DNA of 64,000 nucleotides from assembly GCF_032118995.1 (NCBI RefSeq), contig NC_092657.1, positions 16,226,181 through 16,290,180 on the forward strand. The letters are read 5' to 3'. Both the position numbers and the translations under genes were made by a program. The stretch comes from Asterias amurensis (taxonomy: Eukaryota; Echinodermata; Asteroidea; Forcipulatida; Asteriidae). Position 1 is the stretch's first letter. Every line of letters begins with the position of its first letter. The notes beneath the pieces are model-generated. The model was not told where the DNA came from, made no database searches, and saw nothing but the letters and a program-made list of their open reading frames with translations. Positions 153-51,900 of the stretch are shown here, piece after piece.

Positions 153-1976
153 ACTGTCAGGATTTGTTGGATGCTGGTCGTAAGGAGGATGGTATCTACA
201 CAATCCATCCCATCCAGAATGATAATGGAATACAGGTGTTCTGTGATATGACAAAACATACAGGCTGGATTGTAAGTACATCACTAAAGTGGTGTTTTAT
301 TTAAGGGATTCAAAGGGTAGCGACGAGTCTTAAACGGCCGTTTAAAACCGGCTGGGTCATGGTCGTGTGATCGCACGGCCACGATCTGCAAGGTTTTAAA
401 CGGCGGTTTAGGAACGAGTGGCTACCCTTTTATTTCCATTTATAAATGCCTTCTGGGTTAACAGGCGTAATAAAGTAGGAAACTTTGTAAATCTTAGCCG
501 TTGTCCGATGTACTTGAGCTCTGTACGTGTGTTGCCTATTCATAAACGTTCGTGCGCGTAGTAGTTTGGGTGCAAGACGTTTCCCGTTTTCCTTTCACAC
601 GCAGCCCGCCTAACTCACCAACAGCGCCCGCATCGTCCGTAAAACGTTTTGCACCAAGACGCGTAGTATATGAAAACAACCGGTTATAAACAGAGCTCCA
701 GCTGGTCACTATCAACCGTTTACACACCACCGGATGAAGCGCTCTCACCAACATGAATAGCGAAACTGTCTGAGGTGAATATACGTCAACTTCAAACCAA
801 CACCTTTTTTTTAATGAAAAAAGATGATGCACAAGGTTGTTGGTCCGAATTCCCACCTAACCGCTGATTTCACAATGACTATAATAAATATTGTCGTTGA
901 GTTACTTAATCACATGTTGTTGATTTGTGTAATTCGCAGTCATAGACGTCAAACCAATGTGTGTATGAGAGAGACTGGCTGTTGCCAGCTTGGTGTGTAT
1001 ATCCCTTTTGTGGGAGTTTGCTTAGTTCCCTTACGGGAAGATCATTCGGATGGACGGACGGACGGACGGACGGACGGACGGCCGGACGAACGAACAAACA
1101 AACAAACAAACAAATTACTCTTCGTACGGTTAAGCCGTTTTGAATGACCTTCCACTGAACCTCAGACTAGTAGACGTCCTCTCCAGCCTTAAAACCAACC
1201 ACAAAACTCACTTGTTTAGATTTATATTGATTTTGTACTGTCTTTTGACAGATATGGTGGTTTAAAATGTGTCTTTTGTCTAAACATTTAATGCATTATT
1301 TCATTTTGTCCATTACACCTTTTAAGGACGAACCTGGTCCACTGTTTAACTCACAGTTTGCAACGTCTTCCATTTTTGTTTTCATGAAAAAATACTTTAG
1401 AATAACAGCCAATGCAATAACTGTTGTTTAAATGTATTAAAATTGAGTCATTACTACACGAAACTGAGAAGTTTGCAATGAATACACAAATTATTGCAAA
1501 TATTTTCCAAAGTTTTCAAAACCTCATTGTTTGCCTTAAAATTTTAGCGTGATTTGCATAGATGAATATTTATAACAACAGTGACGTTATTCTACATGTA
1601 CGAATTTAGTTTTAGAGGGTGTATTATTCATACCGGTTATCTATGTTTAAAAATAAATTGAGATAAATCTGACGGCCAGGTCAAAATATTATCATATAAA
1701 TAATTGCTTTGAAGGTGTTCCAGCGGCGCGTTAATGGGTCAGTCAATTTCGACCGCAGTTGGGCAGAATACAAGAAAGGCTTTGGGTCAATGGATGGTGA
1801 GTTCTGGCTTGGCAATGAGATTCTACATAATCTGACTGATGCTGAAGGGAACTGGGCAATCCGTCTGGACCTAACTAATGAAGAAAATAAAACGGGTCAT
1901 TTGCTGAAGAAACAGTTCCGCGTCGGACCTGACGATTACACCCTGTTTCTGGAGAACTCCGAGATACCACCAACTG
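153..1976 (+). CDS. FBG domain, N-terminal half (exons 153-271 and 1715-1976)
   Basis: The first exon reads D-C-Q-D-L-L then DGIYTIHP and VFCDM; the two cysteines match the first FBG disulphide. The second exon continues as VFQRRVNGSVNFDRSW, then GEFWLGNEILHNLT, then FRVGPDDYTLFLE. These are canonical FBG blocks in canonical order. The junction between the two exons is phase 0. The second exon ends in phase 1 at the point where an ordinary FBG domain continues into the GTAGD segment. The long intron (272-1714) carries two small palindromic elements and a microsatellite. Confidence 0.9.
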
Positions 1977-4900
1977 GTATGTCTACTTTTAGTTTGTTCT
2001 CGCCATTACCAGGGCTCCACTGATTATATTGATAGTCTATCAAGGTTGTTTTAAAGGCTCCATTTATTGTAATGTTTTTGAAAGAATCACAAACTATGTT
2101 TGACGGGCCTGTTCTCAATTACTATGTTGCTTTATGTTAAGAGTTCAAAACCGCCATTCAATTTAACATTAAATTTCACACAATTAAATATGTTAGTTGA
2201 CTCCGGGCACGATCTAGACGAAGCTATTTTTAATTCAACAGTTACTTTAAATAATTAAAGGTTTAATTGTTTTTGTTTCTTTCCAGTTGGTAGATATTGT
2301 GGACACAAACTAGGAATGGAAGACGGGAGTATTCCTGATGATAGGATCACAGCATCTAGTCAGTGGGATAAACGGTTTCCGCCAAGTAATGCACGACTGA
2401 ATCTGAACGGTTTTTGGGGACCAGCTGAAAATCAACTCGATCATTCATGGCTCCAAATATTTACTGGTTCAGAGCCAGTGCAGATTGAGGGCGTCATCAC
2501 ACAGGGCTATCCATACGACTATTACTGGGTGACACAGTACCAGGTACAATACAGCAATGATAGCACTGCATGGCTGTATGTCAATGGGGACTCTACTCCA
2601 CAGGTAAGAGTACTCAGCAAAAACACACTCCATCTCGACACACCAATCAAGCTCTACAACCATTATTCATGACCAAAGGCTTAATTACATATTGTATTTC
2701 TTAATTTTTTCCACCCCTGTTTTTTAACAGACATTCGTTGGCAACACTGATAGAAACACCCCAGTTACCAATATATTCCAGCAACCTATTCAAGCACGGT
2801 ACATCCGCATCAGACCAACAGCCTGGATTGGCTGGCCAGACCTACGTATTGAGCTCATTGGATGCAGAGGTATTGTTTCAATCAATCACCACTTTTTCAA
2901 ACGTCAGGCTTATTGTACATAATCTCACTATAAGGATTTGGGTACTTTGTGTAACACAAAACACAAAGTCTACCGATTTACCTTTACATTTAACTTACAC
3001 AGATTGATGATAATGTCAGTAAAAAGCTTATATAAAAAAATATTGCTTGCTGATGTGATTTAATTTTTGAGAAATGTGTAAAACAATATCACGAAAATTT
3101 ACTTGTTTTACTAATTTCTCAAAAACTACAGCACTAAGGGACGCAATTTTTATTTTCAAACTGTGTAAATCTGATGATATTTTGTGGTGTCATTAAAAAA
3201 GTACACAGACCCTTAAAACGAGACACGCCTAACTGATTTCGAACGTAAGTCTATGAATCTCATCTAAAAAGTAACTAGAAAACAATTTATTGCCAGACTT
3301 GCACAGAACACTGCACATAACAAATTCGGTGCATCAAGTGCAAACCAACAGCCTGGAACACATAAGGTATTGAGCTCAGTGGATGCAGAGGTAAAGGATT
3401 TAAGTTAATGATGTATGCTGTTGACCACAGTACAAATAAAGTCACTGCAACATATAGAAATGGGAAAAAAAAAGTCGTAAAGTCAGAATATGTTTGCACT
3501 CAACCTCACTCCCCTTCAAATAATTATTAGACTACACATTAGCTACTATTATGAAAATGTACTATAAAGCCAAATTAAAACGTGTTTCTAAGGTAAACCA
3601 AGGTCTCAATAAGAATTAATTAAAATTAAACAATTCTGAAATTAACAAGACCAACTTCAAAATTCGCAAAAACTGAATGTTTTCACCAAAGGGTGGTTTG
3701 ATAAAACACTATGAATTTATTTATTTTCTCAGCTCATAAAGTTTGTCAGCAGAAGCTTGGAATGGGAGATGGTACCATCCCTGATGAAAGCATAACGACA
3801 TCGTCTACTGATGACTGGTCCTGCAGCAGGAACCCTTTTGGACGGCTAGATGTGCGTGGTGGCTGGTGTCCCACATTGAATGACATATACAGTGCTTGGT
3901 TCCAAGTGGATCTAAAGCATCCGGTATTGATTCAAGGTGTTGTTATACAGGGTAACAACCACAACGAGAACTGGGTTAAAGAGTTCATCGTATCTTACGG
4001 TGACAACGAGAAAGACCAGCGCTTCATAGGAGGGACAGATGAGGACAATGCACAGGTAGGACTTCATACCTAAATGACATAAAACCTTTAAATGTAGAAT
4101 ATTGTATAAATCAACAACACCACAAGCAATTTATTAGGCAGATTATATTTTGTCTTAATGAATTCACTGAAACTGGCAAGTTCACTATTCCTTCAAAGTC
4201 AATCATTCTTTTGTACAGTGTTTCCAGATGTCTACAGCGTTTTACAAATATGAACAAAAGGAACGTTTAAACCAGACTCTGCATGACATTTTGGATAACA
4301 GAGTGTTCCTCAGAACAACGAGCGGCAGCACGCTTTACACAAATAAACTGCAGTAATAAGCGTCTGCATTTATTTAGGAATCCCAACTCTCCAGAAGACG
4401 ATCAATGCATTCTGAGCGAAAAGTCTCGTTGAAACCAACGGTTCTTTTCAGAACAACCCCAACTCATTTATAGATATTCGTTACATGGTGTGACCGCAAA
4501 TCTTTCCATACCGTAATCAACCTTGCAAAATTTCTACTAATCTAAACTGTAAACAAAAACATATAGGGCCTATATCGTGTACGGATCGATTCTTGAGACC
4601 TGGGCGGAATCAAGATGTTTTTTTAGTTCTAAGATAGCTGCTATTATTGAGCATCACATTTGTTTTCAACAGAGATTCCCTGGAAATACAGATTGGTATA
4701 CCAGAGTAACCAACATGTTCATTGAGGAAATCAGAGCACGCTACATCCGCATCACACCAACTGGGTATTATCAGCGTCCTGGGATGCGTATTGAACTCCT
4801 TGGATGTAATGGTAAAGTCATAAAAAAAACAATTATTTATCCCGTTGATTTCTGTAACAACTGACAACAACATAACCATAAATTCTGCTTTTTTTTGGTT

Positions 4901-7900
4901 TGTTGAAACTTTGTTTTATAATGTTAATGGGCTACGTCTCATATTTTATGCAAACACTTACTGAATTCAAATTGATCTCATTTGACAGAATTTTAACGTT
5001 ATCATAGACAATCGCTGCAAATACTTTTGCTTTTTATCCAAACATGTATCATTTAAACATGTATTACATAGAAATGATAATCCTTATTTATACTTTATTT
5101 TGATTAAGCAAATAACCATTAGTGGCGAAATTTAAGGGCTAAATACAACCGCTGTAGGGGTGTACCTCTTTCCCCTTTATAAAAGTGTATTTATTTCCTC
5201 CTGGCTTAACTGTTGGAATATGTATATATTATTGCCTGTTTAACAACGTTACTGTGGAAACAATAAACCTTTAACCTTAAACCCTACTAATAATAATAAA
5301 TAACAACCCGTTTTTTATAGCGCTTTTCACACCCGGAGGCCGCCCCAAAGCGCTTCACATTATTATCCCTGGTCACTAGGCCTTAATTTACTCCTTAAAT
5401 TATTTCAGCTCCCTAGTGGGGAGTATGCAGCCTGTTCAACGTTATTATGCACTATTCGGCTATTAAAACCAATCACAAGAACCATCTCTGCCCTCATCCA
5501 CATGTACCCATTTACCCCTGGGTGGAGAGTGGCAACTACAATTAAGTGTATTGGTCAGGGACACAAGTGTAACGACCGGGATTCTAACCCACACTCTGCT
5601 GAACAGAAGTACCAGAGCTTGAGTTCGATGCTCTATCCGCTCGGGAATAACACCCCACAACGATTCATTTTCAATTTCAATTTGAGAAAACATTGTTTTG
5701 TCAGTGGCGGTAAAGCCACTTGCTTGTTTTTTCCGAAAAATACCACACTGTGATCGGAATTCGAACAATACATTATAAAAAAAAATGCACTCCGATTAAC
5801 CTATTATTGCGTTGCCTTTTATTTTTAACTGATACAGAACGTTTATTTTGTTTGGATCGTCTCGGAATGGGAGATGGCAGCATTCCAGACTACAGAATCA
5901 CAGCATCAAGTACACAGCAGAGGGAAGATGGTACCTGTCAACCAAGCAAGTCGCGACTCACTCAATCAACAAACAGTCAGACTATTGGCTGGTGCCCTGA
6001 TCATAATGACAACAACCCATGGTTACAGATTGATCTAGGATCTAAAGTCATAGTAGAGGGAATTATGATGCTGCAGATATCTGATCAGGGAACCAGTGAA
6101 GATGTGAGTCATGGGTACAGGCTGGAGTACAGTGATGACCAGAGCACTTGGCATACTATGGGTTCAGCACAGGTAAGAACATACATGTTTAATGTAAACT
6201 GATTAGGTTATTGGAACCTAATTATGTCAACCTGTCAAGCTTCTTCAGTCTGCTTCAATTCGCACCTTATCGCATTTTGCTCCCCATACCCGGAATGCAC
6301 TCACCATCTCAATCAGACAGGGAGTCAGACTTTCAATGCAAATTCGAGAAGTGTATCAAACATTATTTTTACCTACTATAACACCCTGTGTTCTTGATGA
6401 GTTGGGGCTTTATAATGGTTTCACAAATTCATTAAGTCCGACTCTACGAACTGACAAGCAAAACTATTCAAACGGATTTGATTGATCTTGTTCAACTTGT
6501 TTGTAAACAACCACAATGTCCCTGTGCCAACGATAGTTTAGTTTAAGCTTCTATGGCTACTTTTTAACGACACATTTTGTATTTTGTTTAAATCAGACTT
6601 ATGGTCTCGAAATAAATTCAACTGTTGTGATATGCACAGTTGAATTGATTTCGAGACCATAAGTCTGATTTAAACAAAATTCAAAATGTGTATTGATAAT
6701 TCTGCTTTGCTAAGTTAAATGGTTTTTGTTTTACTAGTGAGTGACATGCTATTTAATGGAGATAGCATGATAATTTGTAGTTTTTGTTTCTTAACAGATT
6801 ATCCGAAGAAACACCGCAGCAGACTCGGTAGCTACCAGCATGTTCAATCCACCAATCACTGCTCGTTATATCCGCATCTCACTAAACCAGACTGATGGCT
6901 CTCTGTGGATACGTGTTGAACTACTAGGGTGCAAAGGTTAGTTCTAACGAGATGTCTGAGACACATTGTCTTTAAAAAAGTTATATTCGTCTAAATATAA
7001 TAGTGAACTGATCGTGAAAACTGTGTATATACATTTAAAAAAAATCCAACACAGCAATATTTTAAACATTAAAAGAGTGATTGACAAAGTTACAATTTAT
7101 ATTTTTAAAGTGTACATATTTGAATGAGGTTTGCTCAGCTTTTTGAAGCACCTTACAACTCTAAAACCAAGATTGTTCTATAATAGTTAAGGTAAATTCA
7201 CGTTTTGTAATCTTTCTTTAAAGTAATGGCAATAACAACTTATTTGATTGATAAACGGAATTGTTTTCCCCCACAGACTTTCGTTCTGAGAATTGGTTCT
7301 TACAAAAATGTCTCTCCGTTTTGTTCTCTTAGAATGGACAAGTGTTTTTGCTTTAATTGCTCTGGATGATCAGAAATCTATCAAAAGCTTGGTGACCTTT
7401 TAAATTTTAATGTTCACATTTTTTTTTTTTTTATGAAGTAAGTATTTCTGAACTCAATTGATCAACCAAAATGTTTTTGTTTATTTAACTCACGAACCAG
7501 AGCCCAGTTTGAGCCTATCGTGTTATAGAGAAGCCTTTTACAAAGACAGTCCAGAACTTTACAGAACTGGAGAACAACGCATTAAATTCAAATATTCAAT
7601 CAATCAAATGTTTGTATTTACAGTACGCTGGGTATGTAGACAACGCCTTCTTAAGCAAGCCCATATCATTCCAGACGAATCACCACGGCTTCAGATTGAC
7701 CTGCTGTTATTAACTCTAGTTGAGGGAGTCATAGCACAAGGGAAAAATGAAACGTCATTTCAAGTAGAATACAGCCTTGATAACGTTACTTGGGTTTATG
7801 TTAGCCACCAGGTAGCACCTGAAGGAAAACCTCAGGTAAATGGTTCTGTCATTGCACAAACAAAATTGGTTTTGTAAAGGGGCATACCGGCTGAATTGGG

Positions 7901-9144
7901 CTATTTGGGCTACAACATAGACTAAGATAATGACTTCAAAGGTCTGCCAGGAATGGCGAAGAGCAGTCACTATCAAAATATGTTTTATGATCCTACACCA
8001 CTAAATTGCATATACGGTGAGCCGGTGTGCCTCTTTAAATTGACGAGTTTGGTTTCTCGTGGACTTGTTACTCAACTTTAGCTTTAAACAAAGACAACTT
8101 GGTAATCCCAAAAACTCGTACGCACAAGGAACATTGCAACATTATGAACAATGTTTTACTTTGTGACTAAATAAAAGTAAAGGTATAAACCAAATTTGCC
8201 TTAATCATGTTGTTCTATCTCCTGTGCTACAGACATTCCATGGTAATACTCTGCAATCCGCACCGCTAACCAACGTGTTTAAGCAGCCGATCCGGGCACG
8301 CTTCATCCGTGTCACTCAAACAGACGTCGGACATCCAGCCGTAAGCATTGAACTCGTTGGATGCAGAAGTAAGTTCCTTGAAAGTAATAACCCAACTGAA
8401 TTGTAATTCCAACTGCTGGTGTTGTTTTACTTGTTGGTTTGGCTTTAATCTTAATATAAAGAAATAAAAACGATCTGAAACGTGTGTAAAGCAAGCCTTG
8501 TATTAAAGTGTTTTGAAACAGTATAGCCTGCTAATTTACACCTTTCAGTATAGCCTGCTAATTTACACCTTTCAGTATAGCCTGCTAATTTACACCTTTC
8601 AGTATAGCCTGCTAATTTACACCTTTCAGTATAGCCTGCTAATTTACACCTTTCAGTATAGCCTGCTAATTTACACCTTTCAGTGTAGCCTGCTAATTTA
8701 CACCTTTGATATAACATATATTCTAGAACACGCGTGCAGTAACTTTTCTTAAAAAAAAAACTTACCAGACATTAAAAATTGCTTACTTAATTTTTGAAAA
8801 AGTACCTGAATCCTTTAAAAGAGCATCAAATGATATTTGTATTTTATTTTGTTTTTCCAGATGATATTCTTGAGACTGCCAACAATCAAGCCTTCAGCAT
8901 TCACCATCATACAGATAATAACCAAAACGACACAAACTGCCCAGGTCTGAATAGTGAAGGAGGATGGTGGTTTAATAGATGCTCTGGTATACCTGGTGTA
9001 GACAATAACCTTAATGCTGAATATATCCAACCTGGAGATACTATGGGTCCATACAAACGAGTTATTAGAGCTACTGAATGGAATGGGTCTCGTATTGTAA
9101 AAACTGAAATCAAAATACGCCGCCAATCTCCACCTCGTGGCTAA
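153..9144 (+). CDS. Fibrinogen-related gene with four discoidin modules inserted in the FBG domain (3' part, 11 exons)
   Basis: Exons, each bounded by AG and GT where internal: 153-271, 1715-1976, 2287-2603, 2731-2869, 3733-4055, 4673-4811, 5838-6172, 6798-6936, 7624-7835, 8233-8368, 8861-9144 (stop TAA). After two bases that complete a codon from an upstream exon they sum to 801 codons including the stop, with no frame break. Order: N-terminal half of a fibrinogen C-terminal (FBG) domain, four F5/8C modules, C-terminal half of the same FBG domain. FBG proteins are usually secreted lectins that bind acetylated or charged glycans; discoidin domains bind carbohydrate or phospholipid. A secreted or cell-surface recognition role is therefore likely, but that is inference. 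The 5' exons, signal peptide and promoter lie upstream of the window. A possible polyadenylation signal AATAAA is at 9935-9940. Confidence 0.87.
312..430. mobile_element. Small palindromic element (MITE-like)
   Basis: Terminal inverted repeats AAAGGGTAGC / GCTACCCTTT, with a second inner pair around TTAAACGG. About 119 bp, noncoding, within the first intron of the fibrinogen-related gene. A related fragment is near 28317-28380. Confidence 0.6.
555..664. mobile_element. Palindromic element, GTGCAAGACG family
   Basis: Left arm TTTGGGTGCAAGACGTTT and right arm AAACGTTTTGCACCAAGACG are inverted copies around a GC-rich centre. A second copy with the same arms and centre is at 55412-55550. The open frames across it are incidental. 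Confidence 0.6.
1051..1115 (+). repeat. Tetranucleotide microsatellite (GGAC)n then (AACA)n
   Basis: An uninterrupted run of GGAC units grades into GAAC and then AAAC units. It generates the repetitive low-complexity frames on both strands here. Confidence 0.9.
2287..2869 (+). CDS. F5/8 type C (discoidin) module 1 (exons 2287-2603, 2731-2869)
   Basis: The module opens with RYCGHKLGMEDGSIPDDRITASS and closes with RYIRIRPT and IELIGCR, so the terminal cysteine pair and the F5/8C signatures are present. It enters and leaves in phase 1 and has one internal phase-0 intron. The second exon is 139 bp, the same length as in modules 2 and 3. Confidence 0.9.
2933..3200. mobile_element. Palindromic element, GGGTACTTT family
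   Basis: It begins GGATTTGGGTACTTTGTGTA and contains opposed TTTTTGAGAAAT and ATTTCTCAAAAAC blocks around an AT-rich centre. Similar copies lie near 21530-21816 and 61538-61895. It sits in the intron between discoidin modules 1 and 2. Confidence 0.5.
3331..3390 (+). pseudogene. Relic of a discoidin 3' exon inside an intron
   Basis: This intronic stretch matches the end of the 2731-2869 exon: a shared 13-base block CCAACAGCCTGGA, then a near-identical run through ATTGAGCTCA and GGATGCAGAG into a donor-like GTAAAG. The part in between is deleted and the frame is lost. It looks like the remains of a fifth module, or of a duplicated half module. The 5' half of a module is not recognisable next to it. 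Confidence 0.65.
3733..4811 (+). CDS. F5/8 type C (discoidin) module 2 (exons 3733-4055, 4673-4811)
   Basis: It begins KVCQQKLGMGDGTIPDESIT and contains GGWCPTLNDIYSAWFQVDL. The second exon gives RYIRITPTGYY and IELLGCNG. Boundaries are phase 1, internal intron phase 0. The 617-bp internal intron carries a short retroelement copy (4379-4511). Confidence 0.9.
4379..4511 (+). mobile_element. Short retroelement copy (AAGACGATCA family)
   Basis: This 133-bp stretch matches 19639-19780 along its length: AGAAGACGATCA, AACCAACGGTTCTTTTCAGA, ACATGGTGT and ACCGCAAA in the same order. Further copies in the opposite orientation are at 12805-12900 and 46370-46526. The better-preserved copy at 19639 has a 10-bp target duplication. 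Confidence 0.6.
5287..5660 (-). mobile_element. SINE-like element in an intron
   Basis: On the minus strand a tRNA-like head (about 5560-5660) is followed by a conserved body with ACACTTGTGTCCCTGACCAA and a tail ending in AAGCGCTATAAAA and a TTA microsatellite (plus-strand TAATAATAATAA at 5287). Head, body and simple-sequence tail is the classic SINE layout. Family not identified. Confidence 0.55.
5838..6936 (+). CDS. F5/8 type C (discoidin) module 3 (exons 5838-6172, 6798-6936)
   Basis: It begins LFCLDRLGMGDGSIPDYRIT and includes IGWCPDHNDNNPWLQIDLGS. The second exon gives RYIRISLNQTDG and VELLGCK. This is the most complete module (335 + 139 bp) and the closest to the canonical F5/8C pattern. 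Its internal intron contains a long palindrome (6570-6691). Confidence 0.9.
6570..6691. mobile_element. Near-perfect 122-bp palindrome in an intron
   Basis: The left arm (ACACATTTTG...TTTAAATCAGACTTATGG...TTCGAAATA) is mirrored by the right arm ending TTCAAAATGTGT, with a short TGATATGCA loop. In pre-mRNA it would form a long hairpin in the intron of discoidin module 3. Confidence 0.75.
7624..8368 (+). CDS. F5/8 type C (discoidin) module 4, internally shortened (exons 7624-7835, 8233-8368)
   Basis: The first exon is only 212 bp against 317-335 bp in the other modules. It runs from VCRQRLLKQAHIIPDES directly into PRLQIDLLLL, so the ITASS to W-P segment (about 35 residues, including the early strands and loops) is missing while the frame is kept. 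The second exon (136 bp, one codon shorter than its siblings) is normal: RFIRVTQTDVG then IELVGCR. Binding by this module is doubtful; it may act as a spacer. Confidence 0.82.
8519..8707 (+). repeat. 27-bp minisatellite, seven units
   Basis: Seven head-to-tail units containing GCCTGCTAATTTACACC, almost identical (one T-to-G change in the last unit). The unit is a multiple of three, so it makes repetitive open frames on both strands that are not genes. It lies in the last intron, just upstream of the exon encoding the FBG C-terminal half. Confidence 0.95.
8861..9144 (+). CDS. FBG domain, C-terminal half (last exon)
   Basis: It reads DDILETANNQAFSI, then NCPGLNSEGGWWFNRCSG, then KTEIKIRR and a stop. 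These match the FBG FST block, the second disulphide (N-C ... W-W-F-N-x-C) and the terminal KxxEMKIRP block. It starts in phase 1, so it would join exon 1715-1976 directly if the discoidin exons were skipped. The usual calcium-loop DxDND block is replaced by HTDNNQND, so calcium binding is uncertain. Confidence 0.9.
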
Positions 9145-23124: not shown

Positions 23125-23906
23125 GTGTGGATAACGAGCATCGACCAAAAGCCCTAATTACAGAAACGGTACTGCCAAGGTATTGTTAATCAAGATTATT
23201 ATTGGTATTCCAGTTAACTGTTCAAACGTGTATAAAACCCCAGGCCTTTCAAGTTTAAAGGTCTGGTCATTATGAGAGCGATTACTCTGTCTAAGTGGGG
23301 ATATCGAACAACAGCCTTAATAATAGAATCGCTACTGCCAAGGTTTTTAATATGCGAAAGTTATATTGGTATTCAATTTACTACACACGTAGACTTGACT
23401 CAAGCCCCAAATCGTCTAATCGTCAGAAAACTTCCCCAACCGTGCCGCGACTCGGTACCGCAATAGCTGCATTTTGACGGTTGATACGCTTATGGATGTC
23501 TCTCATGAGAACGGGACTTGAATCAAGTCTACTGCCAACGTAACTATTAACGAACTTGACCGAGAATAACACAGCCAATCAAAACCCGCCACAGTTGCTG
23601 TGTGTGGGTTAATCTTCAAGCTGATACACGGTTCGGGCACTGTATCTATACCACTGCTGCGAATACGTTGAAGGGTGAAGTCGATAAGTCGAGCTTACTG
23701 CAATACAATTTTCAGATAATACCACAGAGTAAGTTGATTTTATTGATACTAACTGTTAACAGTGACTTTCCCTGCTGCAATAAATACCGCTTTAGAGTAT
23801 CCATCAACGTTTGTTCGATTTGTTTGATTGATTACTTTGATTGAATCAAAGACTACTGCCAGTGGCTTTTTCAACTAAAAGTTTGAACAGTTTAGAATAT
23901 CTACAA

Positions 23907-24890
23907 ATGATCAACATGGAATTCATTATCACAGTCTTGTTTCTGATTTTGCAAACCTGCCAGTGTGCAAACCAGCAACGGTTCATCGAAACATTCTACT
24001 TCGCTGGAAACCGAGCCTTACAGAGTTATGTGTTTCAGCGCAAGACTGTATCCTCTCCAGTGATATGTGGGCGAGACTGCTCTATGGATCCACAGTGTGC
24101 ATCATTCAACTACCAAATAGATGACCGTGTTTGTGAGTTAAACAATATCACCAGAGCAAACAGCCCCGATGACTTTATCGAATCGCAAGGAAGTGTGTAC
24201 TATGATGAAACAGTGACCACTCTTTCATTCGACATTCCTATAAAGAAATGTACTAGCTGTCTGGAGTTGTATCAAATCGGTTACCGCAGCAATGGTTTGT
24301 ACACAGTCTTTCCCATAAGTCTTACTGATGGGTTACAGGTTTTCTGTGATATGGAGACAGATGGAGGGGGCTGGATCGTAATCCAGAGAAGACAAGATGG
24401 AACTGTTGACTTTTTTCGTACATGGGCTGATTACCAATCTGGGTTTGGTGATCTGCAGAATGAGTTCTGGTTGGGGAATGACATCCTGCGTGACCTTACT
24501 GGGTCAGGTCAATGGGAGCTCAGAGTAGATATGGAAGATTGGCAGTCCGACACATCATGGGCTTCTTATGGTGAGTTTGCTGTTACAGGTGACAACTACG
24601 CTGTACAAGTTGGTTCATATGATGCTCAGAGTACAGCAGGTGATTCAATGACATTTCACAATGGTCTTTCCTTTGCAACGAAAGATCGGGAAAATGGTGA
24701 ACATAACGCGCCTTGTGCCAAGGATTTTGAAGGTGCCTGGTGGTTTAAAGACTGCTTTCGGGCTCATCTGAATGGGAAATACTACCCACAGCAAGATGTT
24801 CCGTTTTCACATGGAATACAATGGGCCATTAAGAATGGATTTGAATTTTCCCTCCAAAAATGCAGCATGAAAATCCGGCAAGTTTTGTAA
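23907..24890 (+). CDS. Intronless fibrinogen-related protein: signal peptide, PAN/apple, FBG
   Basis: The likely start is ATG 23907; the ATG at 23916 has a better context (AAC before, G after). The open frame continues upstream but without an ATG. Protein of 327 (or 324) residues. EFIITVLFLILQTCQCA is a signal peptide. Then a PAN/apple-like module: C-G-R-D-C, C-ASFNY, C-ELN. Then a complete FBG domain: CLELYQIGYRSNGLYTVFP, FCDMETDGGGWIVIQRRQDG, EFWLGNDILRDLT, STAGDSMTFHNG, KDRENG, CAKDFEGAWWFKDC and KCSMKIRQ. It is probably a secreted, ficolin-like recognition lectin. It lacks introns, unlike the gene at 153-9144, which suggests retroposition or intron loss. A possible 5'UTR intron (donor GTAAGT at 23728) and a CCAAT at 23574 are weak. 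Confidence 0.93.
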   Translation: MINMEFIITVLFLILQTCQCANQQRFIETFYFAGNRALQSYVFQRKTVSSPVICGRDCSMDPQCASFNYQIDDRVCELNNITRANSPDDFIESQGSVYYDETVTTLSFDIPIKKCTSCLELYQIGYRSNGLYTVFPISLTDGLQVFCDMETDGGGWIVIQRRQDGTVDFFRTWADYQSGFGDLQNEFWLGNDILRDLTGSGQWELRVDMEDWQSDTSWASYGEFAVTGDNYAVQVGSYDAQSTAGDSMTFHNGLSFATKDRENGEHNAPCAKDFEGAWWFKDCFRAHLNGKYYPQQDVPFSHGIQWAIKNGFEFSLQKCSMKIRQVL

Positions 24891-48900: not shown

Positions 48901-51900
48901 TTGTGACTGGTATTTAGCGGTTGTTTACTGAGCATAACAATTGAGTGGAGTCTTGGCCGGCAATCTGATTTTACTAAGCAAGGATTTGTTTGCTTATGCA
49001 AAATTTTATGCTTTAGCAGCTCTATGAAATTGGACCCTCGTAATTTTTCAACTCAGTGATCTTGCAGTATTGGATTCTCCAGTGATGCAAAGACTCCGAA
49101 CAGGATATGAGTGTTACTCATAAAATGTAATTTCGATTCCTCTGAAGGGATTGTTCAACACACCGTTTGATATTGTTCAAATTTGAATATCTCATGCAAT
49201 CACCACCACCATGCACTTTGAATGTCTGGCGATTGGCATTGTTGGTTACCGAGACCGTGTAACGTTTAAGTCCAATCTAAAGCTCTACCATCAGGATGAG
49301 GTGGATCCGTTTGGTTCAAATTATAAGTGACCATTGGTGCCGATTTGAGCATGGGGAGTTTTCCAGTTTGACTCACCAATATTTTTTAACTAAGTACAAG
49401 GGCACGAAGCTGGGATGTTTAAAATAGTCACACGTGAAGGACTGGTCTGCCAGCCATTTTGCAAAGCGCTCTCTCTAGTCTGCTGCATCCCAAATCATTC
49501 CATTTCCGGCTTCCCCACCACGTAGTATAGAAGGCAGCACAATCTTCATCACCTTCAACATTATTCGGTTCTCTAGTGTTCCAGTTTCTGTAAGCAACCT
49601 CCACGTTACCCTCTCTGCACTTCCATCTCCCCTCCACCTCTCGATCATTACAGTCGATCCATACTACCCCATCAGATAATTGCGCTGTAAACTCGTTTTC
49701 TTGATCAGAGCTTGGTGCAGCAAGAACACCACCCAGGTTTCTACACTCTTCTCTAGCATCTGACCAGGTAAATCTCGTCTCAGTGATCTTGTAGCATGAG
49801 ACTCTCCAGTAATGCCAAGACTCAGAACAGGATGTGCCGTCGTCACTCATAAAAGTAAAACATTGCTGATCATGAGATTCAACCACTCTAAAGCAGCAGC
49901 TATCTAGCAAAGCAGTGCACGTTAATACGAGGAGCACAACATTCACGTTGGCGCTACTGAACATGTTGTGTAAACAAAATCTTGGGACCAGAGTACGAGT
50001 TCTAGCAATAGATGGCTGTTCTCAAACCTTGGCAGTTAGTATGAATTTGATTCATTGAAGTTGACACACCAGAAGTGTTTCCCGGGTTGATGTTTCCGAT
50101 AGTTCTATGCGGCTACATATTTGTCTTTGATGTTCGTATAGTTGCAGTTTTGACTTCTAGAAATCTCGTGAAAGTTTAGAAATTGAGAAACAAGTTTTAG
50201 TTGATCTTACGCAGGCTGTGTGTACTGTTGCCCTTTGCCGATCTGTTTTCCTGATTAAGAAGCGACGAAGGAGAATACCAAACTGGGATCAACAAGTTCT
50301 GAAACAAGCTGTACAATAAATGAGGAATAGCTGGGATGTGCACTTACTAATGGACTTCAGTAACGATGAACGTCCAACGGCAGCTTACACGACAGTATAA
50401 CCTAAAGATACAGGTCTCCATACGATGATGTTCTTCGCAGAGAGACAAAGTCGACCCACCAAACGGTTGCATCGTAAGACGAGTTGTGGTATCTCCTGTT
50501 CTGTTCCGCAACCAAATTCGATCCTGACCTCGTCTGTTAAAATGCGCACACTTTGATTGGCTAGACTAATAATGAATCATGAATAAACATGAACACACTT
50601 TATAACTTAACCATTCAGAGAAGCGTTGGCAGCTACGGTTCCGAAAGTTGAACATGGTACGACCTACTTTACGTGCATGCACATTCTCCGTAATAATAAC
50701 ATTGATCTGCCCGCGATGTGATAATCAATGCAATTTCCACCTGCTTTGAAGCACACCCGAAGTAGTTAAGACATAATGTTGGCCTCCATTTTGCACCTCA
50801 CCATGACGTCGTAACACACGCGCCACCCACATAAGACAAGGGGGCTCGATACTAATTTAGATTCCCAATACATGACGGAAATCATGTGACGCACTATGTA
50901 ACTCCTTAACGAATCCATTGATCTGTTCGTGGTGTGATTTTCAAAACGCTTGAAAGCACGCCCGGAGATATTACTAAGCTTGGCCTCCATTTCCACCACA
51001 GCGTACACCCACACAACACAAAGGAACCTTTCGATCGATTCAAAAAAGTCGATACGATGAATCTTGGCTCTTTGTGAAATCAGCCCCAGTTCGATATTAA
51101 TTTAACAGCCAAAGGTAACGTCAAGCTGCAGACCTGCGAGCTCGTTTTGGTGACGGACTAGGGCCTTTGTCTTTTTCCGCAAGAATAAGACAGACCCCTG
51201 CCACTAGATCCAGTGATTCCATTGGTTACACTGGTTGCGTTCAGCTTCCCTGGGTTGACCCCGCAGTGCTCACTCGGGTGAGTCCCTGGCAAGAGCAAAT
51301 CAAACGATCACACTCGCCCTCTCGTGGTGACGTTAAGCACCTCAGGTCACCCAAAAGTGACCCACTCCACAGGCAGGGCACTGGGGGCTGACCCGAGTGA
51401 GCCTTTGGAATGACGTCAAGGCTATTTAACGCACCGGGGCAGACCAGGGTCGACCCAGGGAAGCTAAACGAACGCACCAATGATATCATGCAAACGCGCA
51501 GTGACATAGAGGCCCAAACAGTCAACTCTGCACGTCCGCAAAATAATTTGACTACGTGCTTCTATATGATATGAGGTTAGGTCAAAGGTGATTGTACACG
51601 CCGGTCTCGAGGCAGGTCTTTTGACGTTATTCACAACCCTCGAAGTTTGACGTCAAATGTTCAGGCTAGTTTGGTGATATCATGAATGCTATGTCATTTT
51701 CACGTTCGCCTCTCGTTTTAAAGGGAAACTATTGGTGGCGCCCTGTAGTGAATCCCAGATATTGTATTACAAGCGCTTCTTTTACACATCAAATTAATGT
51801 TGTTTTCAATTTGCTGCACCTTGTTTATGAAACAATCTCCCTCTACACATCAAACTAGCCACCACTATCTCAAGTTCTAATAGTCTTCTCCAACCATTTT

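Follow-up and report, generated by a model that had tools for sequence, protein, structure and literature searches.

Exon structure of the gene at 153-9144

We analysed a window of 64,000 nucleotides (nt) from the sea star Asterias amurensis (C10:16226181-16290180 of a 491.5-Mb assembly) and, within it, a gene at positions 153-9144 in which a fibrinogen (FBG) domain is interrupted by four discoidin (F5/8C) modules. Eleven exons were re-derived; spliced, they give 2405 nt, read as 800 codons plus a TAA stop codon with zero internal stops, and all ten introns are GT-AG with consistent phases. The first two exons encode the N-terminal part of the FBG domain (FBG-N), the next eight encode the four modules, and the last encodes the C-terminal part (FBG-C). 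This order in one open frame had been proposed in an initial annotation of the window, and the re-derived exons, their phases and Pfam agree with it. The exons, all from re-derivation and with further evidence in brackets, are:

153-271, + strand: E1, FBG-N, first exon within the window, starting in phase 1
1715-1976, + strand: E2, second FBG-N exon, ending in phase 1 at the insertion site, directly after SEIPPT (Pfam)
2287-2603, + strand: E3, F5/8C module 1 a-exon, phase 1-0 (factor VIII C2 alignment)
2731-2869, + strand: E4, module 1 b-exon, phase 0-1
3733-4055, + strand: E5, module 2 a-exon (Pfam)
4673-4811, + strand: E6, module 2 b-exon
5838-6172, + strand: E7, module 3 a-exon (Pfam)
6798-6936, + strand: E8, module 3 b-exon
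7624-7835, + strand: E9, truncated module 4 a-exon (Pfam)
8233-8368, + strand: E10, module 4 b-exon, ending in phase 1
8861-9144, + strand: E11, FBG-C and stop codon (genome exon search)

Both outer borders of every module are in phase 1, and its inner border is in phase 0. The whole discoidin array occupies a single phase-1 intron of FBG and is built of phase 1-1 exon pairs, one for each module. Since such pairs are symmetrical, the frame is kept whatever the number of modules, and the phase-1 borders also make it possible for modules to be dropped in frame by splicing.

Of the four modules in the initial annotation, all were recovered as separate Pfam stretches, but module 4 is not full-length. 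Its a-exon measures 212 nt, against 317-335 nt in the other modules, which makes it 35-41 residues shorter. What it has lost is the region that carries spikes 1 and 2, present in the full fourth module of the predicted protein P0013; aligned against P0013, P0014-P0016 have the same truncation.

Three introns of the gene hold other features. The E10-E11 intron contains a minisatellite of seven 27-bp units, 99% alike (window 8519-8707). After module 1, a stretch of 24 nt (window 3367-3390) is 96% identical to the end of E4 and is perhaps a relic of a lost b-exon. The E7-E8 intron carries an inverted repeat with 56-nt arms, 96% complementary and spaced by 10 nt (window 6570-6691), possibly a small mobile element.

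The 5' part of the gene

The frame described earlier is open over its 800 codons but is not the whole protein, because E1 starts in phase 1 and the gene thus extends upstream of the window. Some 0.5-0.75 kb before the window begins, a stretch at L081 7250-7489 codes for a small, cysteine-rich N-domain. Pfam returned nothing above cut-off for two related N-domains (those of P0002 and P0005). By eye, an N-domain-like stretch also opens Patiria P0042, Acanthaster P0091 and brittle star P0049, before either FBG or discoidin modules. The N-terminus of P0002 is hydrophobic and signal-like (by eye), and the 800-residue product stops seven residues past its Pfam FBG match; from these two features we infer that the product is secreted. 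Neither an immunoglobulin (Ig) domain, as in snail FREPs, nor a collagen-like stalk, as in ficolins, was matched in the 800-residue product, in the precomputed Pfam list of P0001 or in the N-domains of P0002 and P0005; these negatives cover the gene as far as it was read and may miss its true 5' end.

Domain content

In the 800-residue product Pfam matched F5_F8_type_C in four stretches (1.8e-79) and Fibrinogen_C (PF00147) in two (1e-36). With the insert removed, the two FBG parts gave a single continuous Fibrinogen_C match (1.1e-39, profile positions 5-219 of 221), and the best PDB sequence match of this FBG domain was MFAP4 (residues 1-218 of 220). The product thus departs from the uninterrupted domain of the Fibrinogen_C family by the eight exons that split it. 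Both FBG cysteine pairs are kept: C120, C149, C427 and C440 of the one-module relative P0036 are invariant in 24/24 rows, and the same four are found in the window product. By sequence alignment modules 1-3 have the terminal cysteine pair and three spikes. Module 4 keeps the terminal cysteines and, taken alone, still matches F5_F8_type_C (PF00754; 4.7e-12).

FBG domains of the ficolin/tachylectin type carry a DxDND-like, Asp-rich calcium motif. This motif is lost from the window product, which has HHHTDNNQND at the aligned site. It is kept in four of five one-module sequences, namely P0036, P0090 and L040 (YDNDND/YDHDND) and P0042 (PDKDHD); the fifth, L041, reads YDRPANN.

A family of nested genes

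An exon-by-exon genome search, with matches ordered by position and strand, revealed at least 45 loci in which FBG-N, one to seven modules and FBG-C follow each other on one strand. A locus was opened at FBG-N and closed at the next FBG-C, and the order of the modules was not imposed. The counts are lower bounds, as three of the exon searches were each capped at 150 scored candidates; weaker matches (35-57%) underlie module 2 and the C6 modules, and splice borders were fully checked for the window gene only. The loci were distributed as follows:

C10: at least 30 with modules 1-2-3-4; at least two with 1-2-2-3-4; at least two with 1-4; at least one with module 4 only; at least one with 1-2-3-1-2-3-4
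C17: at least one four-module locus
C11: at least one one-module locus
C6: at least seven loci with at least one module each, of which L040 was read through and has one module

Four loci that lack one or both ends were left out of the 45: FBG-N with module 1 on C10, an FBG-C exon on C17, and an FBG-C exon and a module on C6.

At least 39 module-1 a-exons were found; the 38 that were read are all stop-free, and 34 of them are different. FBG-C exons occur in at least 38 copies at 86% identity or more, and all 30 that were read have an acceptor and an open frame. The copies may include recent segmental duplicates. Two C10 loci (15904832-15913843 and 15992070-16001081) have the same spacing, identical FBG-C exons (L018 and L019) and an extra module-2-like exon each; to judge from their sequence they would be either recent segmental copies or assembly duplicates.

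Among database proteins, the predicted A. amurensis protein P0001 (1036 aa) is 100% identical to the product over all 800 residues. Its extra N-terminus includes, in its Pfam list, a reverse-transcriptase-like piece that was not found in the 8 kb preceding the window. P0016 also has an unrelated-looking N-terminal piece, and both pieces probably reflect faulty gene models. Segment comparison recovered the nested order FBG-N/modules/FBG-C in 15 A. amurensis proteins (P0001-P0011 and P0013-P0016, P0009 with a partial FBG-N), and modules with FBG-C and no FBG-N match in P0012. The order was also present in A. amurensis P0090, in A. rubens P0017 and P0036, and in Patiria miniata P0042, whose FBG-C fell below threshold in the segment comparison and was nested in other comparisons. 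The search of echinoderm proteins suggested in the initial annotation thus located the same order in A. rubens and Patiria. A tandem alternative was also sought: amphioxus P0031, P0039 and P0040 and brittle star P0049 are tandem, with the FBG domain intact and not nested. Architecture was examined for 45 of the 249 database proteins listed, one list holding the best 120 of 168, and the searches restrict candidates by length and shared words, so that other animals may also carry the arrangement.

The initial annotation had named two findings that would speak against it, a splice from FBG-N to another FBG-C exon and a separate transcript for the discoidin exons. DNA and predicted proteins point in the opposite direction, with at least 45 same-strand loci and the exons joined in P0001.

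Variation is concentrated in the spikes of modules 1 and 2

Twelve paralogues were aligned, and columns with at least four residue types were counted: 27 in module 1, 20 in module 2, four in module 3, six in module 4, three in FBG-N and two in FBG-C. These columns fall in short clusters. In module 1 the variable loops are:

2361-2381, + strand: hypervariable loop 1 (QWDKRFP), aligned to factor VIII C2 M2199/F2200
2406-2444, + strand: hypervariable loop 2 (NGFWGPAENQLDH), aligned to the C2 V2223 loop
2508-2528, + strand: hypervariable loop 3 (YPYDYYW), aligned to C2 L2251/L2252
2824-2841, + strand: variable loop 4 (WIGWPD), aligned to C2 W2313-H2315

The factor VIII C2 residues M2199/F2200, V2223 and L2251/L2252 have a role at the membrane. 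One PDB title places W2313-H2315 of this domain in membrane binding, and another names an L2251A/L2252A mutant.

Spikes were set from factor VIII as the three a-exon spikes with 3 residues on either side, a width chosen after the clusters had been seen. In the 34 different module-1 a-exons, mean entropy was 1.74 bits at the spikes versus 0.60 elsewhere, a difference reached by 0 of 104 circular shifts. Spike residues made up 15 of the 20 residues that varied most (4.4 expected). In the 12 paralogues the corresponding values were 1.44 versus 0.43 for module 1, 1.23 versus 0.43 for module 2 and 0.50 versus 0.29 for module 3.

Ratios of nonsynonymous to synonymous change (dN/dS) were calculated by pooled Nei-Gojobori counts and are given with 95% intervals in brackets. 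In the module-1 a-exon dN/dS was 0.38 (0.25-0.55) for the framework and 1.32 (0.88-1.91) for loops 1-3 pooled. Loop 3 alone gave 1.56 (1.09-2.02), an interval that excludes 1. The framework of the module-1 b-exon gave 0.21 (0.10-0.36), and FBG-C gave 0.39 (0.19-0.75; 23 sequences).

Origin of the insertion

The related gene L039 (on C6; 83-91% identical to P0058) was examined and contains no modules. Its FBG introns lie at the same two places as in the window gene, and the second of them is in phase 1 and empty. At this site one module is found in L040 and in L041, and L042 has a truncated module 4 alone. The Patiria protein P0042 contains one module; no discoidin domain is listed for ten paralogues from its contig (71-82% identity over the aligned part).

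When 41 FBG domains were placed in a tree after removal of any inserts, the 11 nested Asterias rows formed one clade (98/92) adjoining the empty L039/P0058, and Patiria P0042 fell inside the Patiria genes with an empty site (98/92). The minimum number of changes on this tree is two. The approximately unbiased (AU) test rejected one common origin for all nested genes (p = 2.3e-5), on a tree from which P0141 was dropped for a bad cut, with the other rows cut roughly and L040 and L041 entered without their first exon. Patiria P0142, whose model stops after the module, was left out. In the module tree the nested modules are closely related: 14 of them group with two Acanthaster modules (94/80), and the nearest to the module of P0042 are Acanthaster modules that stand outside FBG in their database records.

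As the nested Patiria gene groups with paralogues whose site is empty, the insertion probably arose twice at the same site; a single insertion followed by later exon exchange between FBG genes is possible. With the empty intron, one-module and multi-module stages in one genome, it would be possible to follow the steps by which a nested domain arose.

Predicted structures and interpretation

The initial annotation had pictured the modules as displayed from a loop of the FBG fold. The model of P0036, with good scores, supports this for a one-module protein, having a closed FBG fold and a protruding module; for the four-module product the FBG-C half was modelled with low confidence. The terminal cysteines of each module would hold its entry and exit together, in which case an insert need not disturb the host FBG fold.

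We consider it probable that the gene encodes a secreted FBG protein with a discoidin array in an FBG loop, and that it belongs to a germline-diversified family of immune recognition proteins. The FBG domain would serve as the constant scaffold, and the variable binding heads would be modules 1 and 2, with module 3 more constant and module 4 reduced. The exposed loops of these two variable modules differ from copy to copy in a way reminiscent of antibody loops. Through their hypervariable spikes, modules 1 and 2 would bind varying ligands such as microbial glycans or lipids, or other non-self surfaces. Loss of the Asp-rich motif in multi-module rows and its retention in most one-module sequences would fit a transfer of the binding role from FBG to the modules.

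Several observations weigh against this interpretation. Immune use is a best guess drawn solely from the pattern of variation. The interval of the pooled loop dN/dS includes 1, those of loop 1 (1.28; 0.43-3.06) and loop 2 (1.19; 0.66-2.05) do not exclude it, and loop 4 gave 0.74 (0.23-2.57; 19 sequences). Loop borders for these ratios were set after protein variability had been seen, which biases the excess upward; the circular-shift test is fairer for the place of variation, though not for selection. Multi-module rows lack the Asp-rich motif of the FBG ligand side, and the FBG domain of these proteins may bind nothing. As to structure, the P0036 model was built with intact FBG rows in its alignment, and the model of the four-module product reached a predicted template modelling score (pTM) of 0.36, with low per-residue confidence (pLDDT) across most of FBG-C. 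FBG was absent among the 50 structure matches listed for the P0001 model, all of which are discoidin-bearing, and these matches count neither for nor against an FBG fold.

The best surviving alternative keeps the nesting and assigns it another job, namely secreted adhesion, matrix or gamete/self recognition, with loops that track some other fast-evolving partner. Discoidin and FBG domains are adhesive in many animals, and the loop variation is compatible with any fast-evolving partner. However, many copies, a near-constant FBG and variation confined to loops are the usual mark of recognition repertoires, and we regard this alternative as rather unlikely.

It is improbable that the modules are mostly spliced out, leaving an ordinary FBG protein (E1-E2-E11) as the main product and the module-bearing forms as isoforms. 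E2 joins E11 in frame and yields a normal FBG domain, and the predicted proteins P0016 and P0017, the latter named isoform X2, lack modules 1-2. The C-terminal exon of P0016 resembles the L035 copy (by eye), whose locus has all four modules; the unrelated-looking N-terminal piece of P0016, however, suggests that its model may be faulty. Against such skipping, module-1 frames are open in all 38 copies read, and the purifying selection on the module-1 framework needs translation.

That the FBG halves do not fold together, being leftover ends of a discoidin protein, would agree with the low FBG-C confidence in the four-module model and with the altered Asp motif. We find this very improbable, since both cysteine pairs are kept, purifying selection acts on FBG-C and the model of the one-module relative has a closed fold. 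An artefact, either a discoidin gene lying by chance in an FBG intron or collapsed repeats, is hardly credible: exon joining was inferred from DNA and some near-identical loci are possibly assembly duplicates, but the same order recurs in at least 45 loci, the window borders are in phase, two further species join the same parts in predicted proteins and most module-1 a-exons differ.

The interpretation as a diversified recognition family can be extended, tentatively, to an evolutionary scheme. Sea stars may have captured discoidin modules into the same FBG intron at least twice, and Asterias may now encode tens of natural 'discobodies' with a constant FBG domain, hypervariable spikes and in-frame module skipping.

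Beyond the initial annotation, the analysis adds that the gene belongs to a family, that loops are hypervariable, that module 4 is truncated and that the insertion probably arose more than once. The gene would be a clear natural case of several modules nested in a lectin-type domain. Animal scaffolds with diversified binding parts include Ig, leucine-rich repeats, snail FREPs and others. If the loop variation reflects recognition, discoidin spikes would join this short list, and echinoderm recognition could be tested with recombinant modules.

Other features of the window

Two further coding features were noted in the window:

23841-24890, + strand: intronless PAN-FBG gene with an uninterrupted FBG domain
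49428-49964, - strand: open frame of 178 aa that encodes a C-type lectin domain (Pfam Lectin_C, 9.4e-18) and begins with a signal-like sequence

The first is the intronless gene that the initial annotation had placed at 23907-24890 and correctly described as uninterrupted in the corresponding FBG region (STAGDSM). A genome search with the FBG profile gave at least 150 matches, nearly all across the profile in one frame.

Comparison with known systems

Both domains, and domain insertion as an idea, were already known. Among the titles and abstract openings found in a literature search, which did not reach most subscription journals, none describes this nesting. Neither fibrinogen nor discoidin is mentioned in the main text of the two A. 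amurensis genome papers (PMC10625585, PMC11090083).

The sea star proteins share the Fibrinogen_C domain with the FReD/FREP proteins (ficolins, tachylectin-5, MFAP4), which are secreted, as the sea star proteins would be, and form expanded families in invertebrates. They differ in the interruption of their FBG domain, which in the window product amounts to 580 residues of discoidin sequence. In snail FREPs the immunoglobulin superfamily (IgSF) domains stand beside the FBG domain and not within it. The tandem proteins of amphioxus (P0031, P0039, P0040) and brittle star (P0049) also combine both domain types, but with an intact FBG domain after the discoidin modules. A definition of snail FREPs by IgSF and FBG is given in PMC7588048.

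With factor V/VIII, lactadherin and neuropilin the modules share the fold, the terminal cysteines and the spikes at the ligand face. In contrast to these, the sea star modules lie inside another domain; the spike region is gone from module 4, and the spikes of modules 1-2 are hypervariable over tens of paralogues. A further parallel is the engineered discobody (PDB 4pt6), which to judge from its PDB title is a discoidin scaffold with antibody-like binding; that molecule is man-made, whereas the variation in the sea star is natural and genomic.

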